Assembly (NCBI GenBank): GCA_020746835.1
Contig: JAGPNK010000006.1
Span: 744,001-808,000 of the forward strand
DNA: 64,000 bases
Reading direction: 5' to 3'
From: Stachybotrys elegans
Taxonomy: Eukaryota; Ascomycota; Sordariomycetes; Hypocreales; Stachybotryaceae
Part shown: positions 41,525 through 47,137 of the stretch, in pieces
Position numbering within the stretch: the stretch's first letter is position 1
Layout of the letters: each line of letters begins with the position of its first letter
The notes under the pieces: generated by a model
The model's input: only the letters and a program-made list of their open reading frames with translations
What the model was told of the DNA's origin: nothing
Databases searched by the model: none
Translations under genes and position numbers: made by a program

Positions 41525-42862
41525 TTAATCAGCTTGCAGCGAAACTGGATGCTTCCATGCCTGGTAAGCTATCCATGTTTGGTAGCAACTCACAGCAAGT
41601 GAAAAGATACCCAGGAGCACCGCGAGAAACACTCCAACAAGTGTCGCCATCATCATATACCTAGCTCCGCTCTTCCTCTCCATCATCTTTTCCAGCCACC
41701 CACTCGGTCTTGGGCTCTGCAGCTCGTTGTATAGCTCTCCTAACCGCTCAGACAAGAATATATACGGAACCTTTTCCTCGCCTGCCCGCCTCACAGCGCT
41801 GAATTCAAAGTTGAGAATGTCCGGGTCTAATGCGCTTGTTGAGACCAACGATTGGAGAAATCTCTTGGACTTGGGATCTGCCAGCGGAAACAGTGTGCCT
41901 TGAAGGGACTCGAGAACTTCCAAAACGAGTTGTCTCGGAAGAGCTCCCCTAGTTTGTGGTCAGCCTTTGCTTACAAGTTGCGGGAAGGACACCCACCGTT
42001 TCAAGGACAGAGAGGCACTCATAGTGTCGTCTAGATCCTTGGTTACTCTCAATTGCTCTTTGAGAAACGAAGTGTAGTGGAAGATTTCGAGGACTCTGTG
42101 TCTTCTATCCAAGTGCAAATGGTTTCGAATGTCGGAGGTGCCCCTGATGGTGATGCAGAGCCGTTTGGCAAGTTTCGTTGCCTTGAGTTGCGCCCTGATA
42201 TCCTCCGATAACTCGCTGTTCGCATCGACCAAGGCGTGGTGGTTCCCCAAAGGAAAGATGTCCTGAATGTATTTGCTAAACGGCACGTCGCACTTCCAGT
42301 GAACACGAAACGTCCCCTTTTCCAGTCTATCCGATGAATGATATAGGGCTGTAGGATCAAGCATAAGAAAGATCCTAACGGCTAGGGCGAGTCCGTCTGA
42401 CTGCTCTGAGGGAGAGAATCTCGTCTTGTTTGAGGCAAAGACCTGTTGACATAACTCTGCGTGCGTAACATCGGGATTGGCCCTCAGAGTCGCCACAATC
42501 CTGAATATGTCTTCAAAGCTGTCAATTGCTGTTCCATCCCTCGGAGTTCCCTCCAAGTAGGTGGTGATGATGGCTTTGTAGTACTGCAGGTATCGCTGGA
42601 GCCCAATGAGGCGGACGTTATGACATTCTCCTCCTGCACAGGCCTTGCCATCCAAGCAATCTTTGCATAGATGCCAGGACCAGAGCGACTGTCCAACTTC
42701 GGAGAGTAGGTTTCCGTCGGATATCTGAAGGAGCTCTTTCATCAACATTTTTAGGCGCCTTTTCTTGAGTTGTCTTCGACACGAGCATTGAGCATTGGGA
42801 GAGTCGAGCTGGGCTGAGCTGAACTGAACCCTTGCTTTTTCTCCAAGCCTCCCACCCTCCAT
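41525..42862 (-). CDS. Conserved fungal protein with C-terminal membrane anchor, unknown function
   Basis: Minus-strand exons 42862-41997 and 41948-41525 give 429 aa. The 48-bp intron has a GTGGGT donor and ends ACTAG. Visible parts: a Cys-rich motif CKDCLDGKACAGGEC in the first 80 residues (possible metal site), a long helical middle, and a conserved-looking C-terminal module. That module includes GALPRQLVLEVLESLQGTLF, FPLADPKSKRFLQSLV, a hydrophobic helix (TLVGVFLAVLLGIFSLAV) and a short tail YQTWIAYQAWKHPVSLQAD. I recall this tail-anchored module in many uncharacterised Sordariomycete proteins, with no assigned function. An ATG 75 nt upstream (42937) is in frame but has a weaker context. 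The gene is head-to-head with the trypsin-like protease gene, 175 bp or less apart. Confidence 0.75.
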
Positions 42863-43037
42863 TATGGATGGCAGGGATCCGCGCCACGCGCCATACTCTG
42901 CGAAATGGCAATGCTGCCTTAGACCGAGCCTGACCATCCAGCTGTCTTGAAATGCCAGCTGGTTTTCCCATCATCATCTTTTTCTTGCCTACTGGTCGCC
43001 CCATCTATACTTGTGTGAAGCATCTCCCGAGCTCGCC
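42863..43037. promoter_or_regulatory. Compact bidirectional promoter of the membrane-protein/protease pair
   Basis: The two start codons face away from each other with only 175 bp between them (100 bp if the upstream ATG at 42937 is used). Both transcription starts must therefore lie in or very near this spacer, or the 5' leaders overlap. I see no TATA box. Co-regulation is inference. Confidence 0.5.
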
Positions 43038-45463
43038 ATGTCTTCACTCCAATCGCCACCGTCTCGGCATTTTACTGATGACAGCATACTAGACAGGTTG
43101 AAGCTGAAGCTGCTGGCGCTAGGTCACCCTTCTGGGCTGACGCCCACCACCAGCCAGCCAGCTGAACCAGCCCGCAAACAAAGACCGATCAAGACCGCCA
43201 TAGATTCTGGATACAACTCCTTCAGCAACTCTGTCGCCTCTGCTTCCGACACCAATCCGAGCGAGAATAGCGGCACGAGTTTGCCGGGAACAACAGTGAA
43301 GCATTTCAACAAGGTGATCCCCAGGCAGCTGCAGCAGCGCTTCTTCGACCTCAAAGTCCTCTACACACAGCCCCTCCTTGACACTATCTTGAAGAAGAAG
43401 AAATCCAACCACGGTGATGTCTCGATGAAATTAAGACACCTTGGCCACAGCTACGAAACGGCTACGCTCCACATCGTCATTCAATGCGAGAAGAAGATAT
43501 CCAAGACTGTGAGGCGATTTTTTGAGCAAAAGCACGTTGCCCAAGACTTGAAGCCCGACTTTTCCATATTCATCATCGAGAAGGAGATTCTACGCCTCGC
43601 TTCGGCGAGTGAGATTGATGTTCTTTCTGACACCTGGCCGACCGATACGCTGTGCGGCATGCCGATTCGGCTGAAGAGATATGACGTCTCGGCATTTGCG
43701 ACACTCGGCGGGCTGATACTCGTTGAAACGAAAGAGAAGCATCTCTACGGCCTCACAGCGGCACATCCCATCAAGAGTCTCTTATGGGCGTATAATGAAG
43801 CTTGGTCAGACGTTGAATCAGACTCAGCCTCGGAGTTGGATGAAGCGTCGGACCATAATACCCCTGGGACAGAGTTACCAGACTCGGAGTCGGATGAAGC
43901 GTCGGAGTCGGATGAATCGTCGGACCATGATACCCCTGGGACAGAGTTACCAGACTCGGAGTCGGATGAAGCGTCGGAGTCGGATGAATCGTCGGACCAT
44001 GATACCCCTGGGACAGAGTTACCAGACTCGGAGTCGGATGAAGCGTCGGAGTCGGATAAAGCGTCGGACCATGATACCCCTGGGACAGGGTTACCAGAGG
44101 CCGAGTGTAACGCTGAATCTAAGACCAGAGCGCGGTCCAACTCCCAGGGATATGCCATAGATGGGAGAGTCAATGTCTCTAATAGCGAAGTGGTCATCGG
44201 GGCCATTACTTGCCATACATCCAGAGGCACACCCATCCAAGTAAATTACGATTGGGCCCTGGTGGACCTGAAGTTACCAGATGTCATTCTGCCAGCCGCC
44301 ATTTCCATCCCTTGTCAGCCACCGGAGAACCGTCTTGGTTTCGTCACCAAAGATAATACAGACGAAACACAAAACGAACCAGCACTCATGCTACGTCCTC
44401 CAAGTAGCCGACCGGAGTTTTCGTCTCAACAAGTCTCTGTACGCACGAACCGCGGCCCCCAGACAGGATGCCTTATGTTCAATAAGTCGACCATGATGAT
44501 CGCACCAGGGTCTAGCTTCGTCGAGATCTATGACTTGGCAATCGACCAAGATTCCAGTAGGGTTCTCCAAGCTCTCTTGCTCAGATATATAGCTCACACT
44601 GCTGAAAAGTTCTGATTGCCGGCGACTCCGGCTCTTGGGTTGTCGACGATGCTACGGGGGAAGTCTTTGGCCACGTAGTGTCTGTCGATGTCTTTGGTGA
44701 AGCTCAGGTAATGCCAATTGAGGCGACATTAAGTGATATAAGAACAGAGACCGGGGCTCAGAGAGTACTCTTGCCAACCTTTGGCGACCTGGAATTGGTA
44801 ACGCCGACCGGCATTTCCCTTGAGTCACCGCTGCCTTTGATTCTCGAATGCTCTGACCGTTTTACATCGGACTTCTCTCAGACACCCCTTGTTGTTCCAC
44901 AGCAGAGCGATCTCGGTATCAGAGATATGAGACGGTCTTCGAGCGAGTCCACGGCTGTTGATCCCCGGGCGGTTGATCAGTCTAGGCCATTGGATAAATG
45001 GGCGGATCCAAGTATATCTTGTGCTGTACCCTCACTTGACCTACCGGTACTGGTGTCTGTGGACTCACTTGACGTACCGTTACTGGCACCTGTGGAAGCG
45101 CATACAGATAGAGATCTGGCTCAGCTGCCCGACCCGGGACCATCCCTTGCGTTTACTGCTTTCGACGAACAAGAGGCTGAACAAGTGCCTTCAGCAAAGG
45201 ACAGTCGCATAAGAGAATGGTTGCGGAGTCTGGGTCATCGATCTATATCATCTTTCTTCTGGCCACCAGGGAAACTATCGAGGCTGCGCGGCTCTAAAAT
45301 ATTCGGAGCAGCGTCGGCCAAAGATAAGACAGTCCTTGGATACGTGGCGGCCTCGCCAGTCAAATCGCCGCATGAACATTCTTCTCAGAGAAAGTACAGG
45401 GGCTCTGAATCGGTAGCAGACTCTGGATATGGATCACAGAACCTATTAGAACGCTTTTCTTAA
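43038..45463 (+). CDS. Intracellular trypsin-like serine protease with acidic tandem repeat and disordered tails
   Basis: Exons 43038-44556 and 44610-45463 give 790 aa. A chymotrypsin-type triad can be read: His243 in LYGLTAAHPI, Asp405 in YDWALVDLKLP, and Ser513 in AGDSGSWVVD. The last is rebuilt only by removing a 53-bp intron (donor GTAGGG, acceptor AAAAG). This GDSGSWV...GEVFGHVV layout is one I recall from poorly studied fungal proteins. There is no signal peptide, so the protein is probably cytosolic or nuclear. Between His and Asp lies an acidic tandem repeat of 24 residues. N- and C-terminal tails are Ser/Pro-rich with DSGYNS (near residue 57) and DSGYGS (near residue 785). Active protease versus pseudoprotease is untested. 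The start ATG was chosen because the longer open frame begins with a TTG. Confidence 0.82.
43821..44096 (+). repeat. 72-bp coding tandem repeat (three near-identical units plus a diverged one)
   Basis: Units run 43881-43952, 43953-44024 and 44025-44096, preceded by a shorter diverged copy from 43821. Each 72-bp unit encodes 24 residues, DSESDEASESDESSDHDTPG followed by TELP. Units 1 and 2 look identical; unit 3 differs by a few bases (GATAAAGCG for GATGAATCG, GGG for GAG). Such identity suggests recent amplification. The frame is kept, so length changes by 24 residues. Confidence 0.95.
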
Positions 45464-45852: not shown

Positions 45853-46656
45853 CTATTCAAGGTGGGTGCCCAGATTTATCCAGAAGGACAGACTATAGTG
45901 GCCTTCCCATCCCGGAGTCATAGAGACAACGCACCGGGTAGAACAATCTTGACAAGTCCTAGGTCCAATATGATAGTGTCCTTGGGGGTATTTAGTCGTC
46001 AGGGACTGAAAGTATCGTAATGTCGCATGTACATCGAATCGAAAGTGTGGACAGACTGGGAATGTGGACAGCACATCATTTGGGGCTTCCACTGACACCA
46101 GCCAGACTTCGAGACGTGAAGGTTCTTGAACGCGGGTGAGCTTGTTCCGCAGTGTGCTACACCGCCAGCTAAGGCCAGTAATACCCTTAGGAATTGGGCA
46201 ACTCCTTATACTCTCCTCAGCCGCCGCCAGGTAAGGACATTGGGAGCCCCCCTCCCGTTGCCCCGGAATTTGTTGCCAAGTAGCGGAGATAAGATCCTCA
46301 AACATGCTTGAAGACGTAGAGAGTGGCACGAGGCACTCGGCTAGGTGGTGAAGCCTACCGCAATCGTAGCAGTACCAGTTATTATGCATGTGTGTTTGCA
46401 TGCCTTTCCAGAAGCCTAGCTCGGTGCCCTTGTAGACTGTCTCGGCGTACGATGTAACTTCTGTCTCCCAATTTCTCACGGTGAGAACTCTGAAGCGACG
46501 GCAGGTCTGCGAAATGGGAAACAAGTCGTGGGGTAGGAGAGAGCCGAAGATCGCCAACAGAAGCTCGTTTGGCAACCTCAGGATCCTTGTCTTGAGGGTC
46601 TCTGCTGGGGTTTTTTCTGCCATACATAGGCCCTGGTCGTCTGTGTTGTTCGTCAT
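45853..46656 (-). CDS. F-box protein with Cys/His-rich C-terminal region
   Basis: A single exon encodes 267 aa from the ATG at 46656; the longer open frame begins with a TTG and is not used. F-box proteins bind Skp1 in SCF ubiquitin ligases and choose substrates. The F-box lies at about residues 24-60 (LRLPNELLLAIFGSLLPHDL, then FPISQTCRRFRVL). After it come CYDCGRLHHLAEC, a Cys pair around CSTL, CPHFRFD, and CQDCSTRC, which could form one or two zinc sites. No WD40 or leucine-rich repeat is present, so the substrate is unknown. This Cys-containing single-domain F-box type is common in expanded fungal families. The protein ends soon after FWINLGTHLE, perhaps slightly short of relatives. Confidence 0.8.
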   Translation of the reverse strand: MTNNTDDQGLCMAEKTPAETLKTRILRLPNELLLAIFGSLLPHDLFPISQTCRRFRVLTVRNWETEVTSYAETVYKGTELGFWKGMQTHMHNNWYCYDCGRLHHLAECLVPLSTSSSMFEDLISATWQQIPGQREGGSQCPYLAAAEESIRSCPIPKGITGLSWRCSTLRNKLTRVQEPSRLEVWLVSVEAPNDVLSTFPVCPHFRFDVHATLRYFQSLTTKYPQGHYHIGPRTCQDCSTRCVVSMTPGWEGHYSLSFWINLGTHLE

Positions 46657-47137
46657 GGTAGCGATGAGGTCCGGATCGTGCAAGTTTATCGATTGGTGCG
46701 TGGATAGAAGTTGACTTCCAAGGGGAAAGAGATGAAAAGTATGTGCGGCCTCGAGGGATGGGTGGGATTATTATATACATGCATCACAAACTTAAAAGCT
46801 CTCAAAGTATGCGGCAGGTTTGCGACTGGTAACTGCCGTCTGCGGACATCCAGGCAAAGAAGCAACCTTAACCTCGCTCCGCATTACTAAGTTTCACTGA
46901 CAGTTATTCGGCACGTCCTTGAAATTGACTGTCATGGAATAAATCTGACCTTTACCACCGGCAACGAGACTGGCATCCGAGATGGCCGTAGGATGCTCAA
47001 TTATCCTTTTGTGGTCCACAGCATCTTTAACTCCAGGACCGAGGCCGCACATGATATGGCTCTCAAACACAGGAACGCCTGCCTCATGCCCAAGGTCTTA
47101 TAATCTTCCGACACCTGCCTTTGTTCCCGAACCAGTC
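46657..47137. other. 481-bp spacer
   Basis: It holds the F-box gene promoter and the 3' flank of the PTH11-like gene (transcribed in the same direction). No other feature is seen. Confidence 0.45.

Follow-up and report, generated by a model that had tools for sequence, protein, structure and literature searches.

A divergent pair of genes, here called A and B, lies between positions 41,525 and 45,463 of a 64,000-nucleotide stretch of the Stachybotrys elegans genome (contig JAGPNK010000006.1, positions 744,001 to 808,000; hereafter the window). A encodes what looks like a tail-anchored membrane protein, and B encodes a trypsin-fold protease with a complete His-Asp-Ser triad. The pair occurs twice in this genome, as two diverged head-to-head copies. 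Since the two genes are also neighbours in several other fungi, A and B probably work together, and we consider it very likely that they act in a shared pathway. That A serves B as its membrane platform or as its substrate is, in our estimate, about evenly balanced between right and wrong.

Occurrence and age of the pair

A and B served as queries against the 43.4 Mb assembly (E≤0.01). Apart from itself, A detected a single locus on contig C60 (31–48% identity by exon), and B detected the same place (27–50% identity), as well as one short match, on the opposite strand, across its own repeat. The two A and two B loci found by these queries form two head-to-head pairs. At C60, A' on the plus strand and B' on the minus strand lie head to head with 549 bp from start to start; their gene models have the intron phases of A and B, with positions identical in the B genes and at most about a codon apart in the A genes. 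No additional full-type A or B came up when the genome was searched with A' and B' (E≤0.1); these searches added a weak match to the tail of A at C4 (E 0.038) and, at C1, a remote match to the protease (E 8e-4). The first-pass annotation of this DNA, made from its letters alone, had placed the start codons of A and B back to back and at most 175 bp apart. The divergent arrangement is correct, but the distance is 289 bp, as the shorter figure relies on an upstream ATG that is absent from the annotated model. The sequence between the two genes is a possible bidirectional promoter.

At least 125 relatives of A were found at E≤0.01 (120 listed), all of them fungal where named, and at least 45 relatives of B in a first search and at least 47 in a profile search; these counts are lower bounds, and a genus without a match among those listed is uninformative. 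Locus tags were compared by script for 31 A and 42 B entries and by eye for the remaining ones. In all 14 annotations for which both lists contain serial tags with a common prefix, the A and B tags are consecutive; 13 of these annotations are from Fusarium (with two each for F. proliferatum and F. nematophilum) and one is from Monosporascus (DL766_000467/000466). Five further pairs are apparently co-located: two in Xylariaceae, one in F. venenatum (12 Mb, weak), one in F. graminearum (974 kb) and one on a metagenome contig. Rarity of such neighbours in other genomes was what the first-pass annotation had named as the sign of an accidental pairing; this check was run, and both the second head-to-head pair and the 14 consecutive tag pairs point the other way.

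A midpoint-rooted tree of 81 full-length A homologues and A' places A' in a clade of 19 members (support 0.996), which includes Trichoderma, Clonostachys, Ophiocordyceps, Cosmosporella and two Monosporascus sequences, while the A of the window stands apart from it with Fusarium and a Hypoxylon. In the corresponding tree of B, built from 17 hand-picked sequences and also midpoint-rooted, the B of the window joins Fusarium, Monosporascus and Xylariaceae (0.866), and B' and a single metagenomic sequence (0.863) lie outside this group; the domain at C1 is more remote than either. The two pairs belong to separate clades in both trees, which is most simply explained by a duplication of the pair as a whole before these lineages split, with both copies staying linked. 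Transfer of the pair between fungi is a possible alternative account.

Several observations weigh against an old, cooperating unit. The 13 Fusarium tag pairs among the 14, with two species counted twice, probably represent one orthologous locus, and gene orientation, which consecutive tags do not reveal, is established solely for the window and C60 pairs. Two A genes, DL766_001420 (Monosporascus) and P0086 (Xylariaceae AK1471), have no B match on their own contig, though the species has B; many genera that bear A, Trichoderma, Podospora and Colletotrichum among them, have no B among the matches listed; and the third, remote B-like domain, at C1, has no adjoining A. The age of the pair depends on midpoint rooting, and genes whose products make no contact could also be held side by side by a shared promoter or by stable synteny.

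The two proteins

The product of gene A, which contains one 48-bp intron, matches the Stachybotrys elegans entry P0001 (B0I35DRAFT_478152) at 100%. Its hydropathy profile contains one C-terminal membrane helix followed by a short tail and no second hydrophobic segment, as the first-pass annotation had recognised; the helix spans residues 335–383 in the predicted model, and 19 residues separate its core from the C-terminus. The most conserved 44-residue stretch of the protein, residues 342–385, contains this helix. A352, G356, A360 and G364, spaced by four, are identical in 57 of 57 aligned sequences, in which Q374 and W382 are also invariant. Four invariant small residues together with these two are more than a plain anchor requires. 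The pattern AT..G...A...G is found in 96 of the 120 listed homologues; the other 24 are models without the membrane tail, with one exception (P0108). The predicted structure (predicted local distance difference test score, pLDDT, 90) is mostly helical, with 20 helices and three strands of 3–5 residues, and it has zero matches among PDB structures at E≤0.001. No known pore-former fold was found for A by the searches made, which cannot exclude one, and a Pfam scan recognised neither an inhibitor domain nor HeLo. A cysteine motif near the N-terminus is a possible metal site.

A protein encoded elsewhere in the genome, at C4 (L033:4810-7665, G000), also carries an A-like membrane tail, and its TEYMEEHLKFD resembles TSDIRNHLHLD of A. 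Comparison of its profile with the A alignment gives a probability of 10% (P 0.003), a weak lead; this protein may mark a wider fungal superfamily with A.

The product of gene B matches the Stachybotrys elegans entry P0121 (B0I35DRAFT_460190) at 100%. The gene is interrupted by a 53-bp phase 1 intron immediately upstream of the catalytic Ser codon. In the predicted model an α/β domain precedes a two-barrel protease (residues 194–262 and 385–560), and disorder is predicted for most of the linker between the catalytic His and Asp and for most of the C-terminal 210 residues. The first-pass annotation had assigned a full triad and no secretion signal to this protein; H243, D405 and S513 are in place and the N-terminus is not hydrophobic. 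The double β-barrel chymotrypsin fold with catalytic residues in the order His, Asp, Ser is that of PA clan family S1, and the structural matches of the core are the S1 proteases SGPB and DegS and rice NAL1 (NARROW LEAF 1). By sequence, no Pfam trypsin domain (Trypsin or Trypsin_2) is recognised in the B of the window at E≤1, nor any PDB entry at E≤1; its relatives P0126 and P0170 have Pfam trypsin matches below the curated cut-off. The Pfam scan also found no PDZ, S8, CHAT or HeLo in B, and no NLR, WD40, ANK or TPR domain in the B proteins scanned. Among 54 B homologues, the motifs of the triad were located in 53 (His), 53 (Asp) and 42 (Ser). The 12 without the Ser motif comprise 11 models of 395–521 residues, which may be truncated or mis-spliced at the intron before Ser, and P0136, of 1185 residues.

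The His-Asp linker of the window's B is 161 residues long because of a 72-bp tandem repeat, compared with 66–96 residues in the 51 other homologues with both flanking motifs found. Asp and Glu make up 26% of it, the acidic share across homologues being 6–26%. Motifs of the DSGYxS type occur near both ends of six full-length clade-I non-Fusarium B proteins (P0121, P0137, P0162, P0163, P0168 and P0170); B' carries the N-terminal one only. A known phosphodegron has the consensus DSGxxS, and we would guess that turnover of B might be controlled through these motifs.

The C-terminal part of B varies by lineage. Pfam recognises no domain there in the B of the window. The precomputed label DUF8035 is attached to 25 of the 45 entries of the first B search, all from Fusarium; the Pfam scan of P0126 and P0145 did not reproduce it. 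DUF7896 is found in two Xylariaceae B proteins, and B' contains a zinc-finger-like region, identified by eye. Seven places in the genome match this tail of B' only: three on C45 and one each on C23, C3, C1 and C30. Several Fusarium homologues (P0122, P0126, P0134 and others) share a similar C-terminal hydrophobic motif (AAVSLLSVLSEAASAI type) preceded by a helical region; the existence of shorter Fusarium models makes a gene-model error possible. A HeLo-like identity for this helical region was dropped, as Pfam returned only unrelated sub-threshold matches at E≤10.

Table 1. Position of the A–B features within the window
Feature	Position	Strand	Remarks
Gene A, 391-residue putative tail-anchored membrane protein	42748-41525	-	exons 42748-41997 and 41948-41525; intron 41949-41996
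A, Cys motif CxxC...C....C near the N-terminus, residues 28-42, possible metal site	42623..42667	-	each Cys in 45-50 of 57 sequences
A, transmembrane helix core, residues 348-372	41585..41659	-	holds A352/G356/A360/G364; then Q374 and W382
Region between the A and B start codons, 289 bp	42749..43037	.	starts from the P0001 and P0121 models
Gene B, 790-residue trypsin-fold protease	43038-45463	+	exons 43038-44556 and 44610-45463; intron 44557-44609
B, N-terminal DSGYNS motif	43203..43220	+	
B, α/β domain preceding the protease, residues 88-181	43299..43580	+	well predicted in the model; conserved columns
B, catalytic His243 (GLTAAH)	43764..43766	+	H in 35/36 aligned homologues
B, 72-bp in-frame tandem repeat, most of the acidic His-Asp linker	43826..44098	+	3.8 copies, 96%; mostly pLDDT below 50
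B, catalytic Asp405 (YDWALV)	44250..44252	+	D in 36/36 aligned homologues
B, catalytic Ser513 (GDSGSW)	44627..44629	+	S in 28/36 aligned homologues (4 gaps, 4 other residues)
B, C-terminal DSGYGS motif	45419..45436	+	

Possible functions of the pair

As a membrane-based protease unit, A and B would form one old two-gene system. A would face the cytosol from an intracellular membrane, into which its C-terminal helix would insert, and could self-associate through the small-xxx-small (glycine-zipper) face of that helix. B would be a cytosolic protease restrained by its acidic His-Asp linker and its disordered tails, and would act on A or from A, being recruited to the membrane by A, cutting it, or both. 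The output would be regulated proteolysis at the membrane. Signalling is a plausible output, if one that falls short of an even chance, and cell death an improbable one; both overlap with A being a platform or substrate, so the likelihoods given here do not add up to one.

Signalling could take the form of a membrane-tethered protease, with A as the scaffold that places B at the membrane and B processing transcription or signalling regulators, as plant NAL1 degrades TOPLESS-type corepressors. We regard this account as tenable, somewhat more likely to be wrong than right. NAL1, a plant trypsin-like protein, shares the fold of B, but the two are only 17% identical, B differs by its long acidic linker and an additional domain at the N-terminus, and the accessible parts of the NAL1 literature mention no membrane partner. 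Bacterial proteases of the HtrA/DegS and Rv3671c types carry their membrane part in the same chain as the protease, whereas here it would be supplied by a separate gene, A, and Pfam recognises no PDZ domain in B.

Alternatively, the pair could be a protease-gated membrane executioner, in which B, once triggered, would cut A, and the released part would oligomerise by its glycine zipper and break the membrane. This would be a non-gasdermin analogue of the protease–gasdermin clusters of regulated cell death or allorecognition, and the first-pass annotation had pointed to such a parallel with HET-Q1/HET-Q2. The likeness lies in the layout, a gene for an intracellular serine protease adjacent to that for a membrane-acting partner (PMC12881547, PMC10197012, as far as their accessible parts describe it). 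The invariant glycine zipper of A and the lineage-specific C-terminal part of B are also consistent with it. The folds differ, as that annotation had itself stated. The pore-forming domain of gasdermins is rich in β structure and helices predominate in the model of A, one of them the C-terminal membrane helix; B has the S1 fold, neither S8 nor CHAT. The only gasdermin partners named in the accessible parts of the two papers are serine proteases of the S8 (subtilisin) type and CHAT proteases (PMC12881547, PMC10197012), with about 63% S8 and 19% CHAT (PMC10197012), and the word "trypsin" is absent from the main text of both.

A further hint comes from the C1 locus (L034:2202-5787; G000 C1, about 5504.2-5507.8 kb), where one strand encodes a HeLo domain, a kinase-like stretch and a B-type α/β plus trypsin-like domain. 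The HeLo domain (PF14479) scores above the Pfam cut-off and lies upstream of the B-like domain, as does the kinase-like stretch, seen by eye. The profile of B aligns with the C1 domain over 384 columns, the α/β domain included, at a probability of 98.4% (hhalign), and the triad motifs are present; judged by this comparison, the domain is a true B relative. The last two frames can be joined by a 47-bp GT-AG intron. The first two meet within the kinase-like part at a frame change for which there is no convincing pair of splice sites, so a fusion of HeLo and B-type protease in a single intact gene is not established. At this locus a B-type protease would be linked with a cell-death domain. HET-S/NWD2-type HeLo clusters are likewise two-gene cell-death units, but neither A nor B contains a Pfam HeLo domain, which is found only at the separate C1 locus.

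Besides this frame change, several points count against an executioner. The pair is low-copy and lies among housekeeping genes, no sensor repeats were found in it by Pfam, the membrane segment of A is strictly conserved and not polymorphic, and the searches for a known pore-former fold, within their limits, were negative. We consider it unlikely that the pair is an executioner, and slightly less likely still that it defines a new non-gasdermin executioner class of filamentous ascomycetes, comprising a tail-anchored glycine-zipper protein A and a cytosolic trypsin-fold protease B, paired probably before the Hypocreales–Xylariales split, with a B module beside HeLo. The first observation is confirmed, the pairing being stronger than could be known from the window alone, and its interpretation is partly supported: a defence-type module is a reasonable hypothesis, with the C1 locus as one new hint for the cell-death parallel and several points counting against it.

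Yet more doubtful is a guard pair, in which membrane-bound A would inhibit B, or the reverse, and loss of A would free the protease. The divergent arrangement would permit balanced expression, and both partners are retained in each of the two diverged pairs, but no inhibitor domain was recognised in A and A genes without a found B exist. Least likely of all, the genes would be accidental, stable neighbours by microsynteny or a shared promoter; the similar low tag numbers near 200 in several Fusarium (FMAN_00192, FPRO_00205, FPRN_00186, ACJZ2D_000240) are those expected of one orthologous place, but two deeply diverged head-to-head pairs in one genome, the Monosporascus pair and, by weaker co-location evidence, two Xylariaceae argue otherwise.

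Within microbial immunity, fungal two-gene clusters that couple a protease with a membrane effector form an expanding branch. The searches made of the open-licence PMC literature (including PMC9815663, PMC12258605 and PMC12915138), a scope outside which most subscription papers fall, found no description of an A–B pair. Conserved as it is, with a protease of another fold and a membrane partner that has no structural match, the pair is a clear candidate, open to testing, for a novel system of regulated proteolysis or cell death, and homologues of A occur in the laboratory-tractable genera Fusarium, Podospora and Trichoderma.

Genomic surroundings

Ten long open reading frames of the window, out of 55 listed, were scanned with Pfam. 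Six gave matches over the cut-off (Nuf2, adaptin, purine/cytosine permease, importin-9, BUD3/RhoGEF and F-box), one a match below it (KilA-N) and three none. The first-pass annotation had counted accessory surroundings and repeat amplification as fitting a self/non-self or defence-type module. Accessory surroundings are not supported, nor is repeat amplification as the sign of a fast-evolving module: Nuf2, adaptin, importin-9 and BUD3 lie nearby, and the pair is low-copy among housekeeping genes. The 72-bp repeat lengthens the His-Asp linker. The six recognisable frames are mostly housekeeping genes, and the C60 pair adjoins a putative sugar transporter and a putative glycosyltransferase, both identified by eye, which argues against an accessory defence island; this candidate was rejected. 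The F-box gene (PF12937), at 45853-46683 on the minus strand of the window, is convergent with B.
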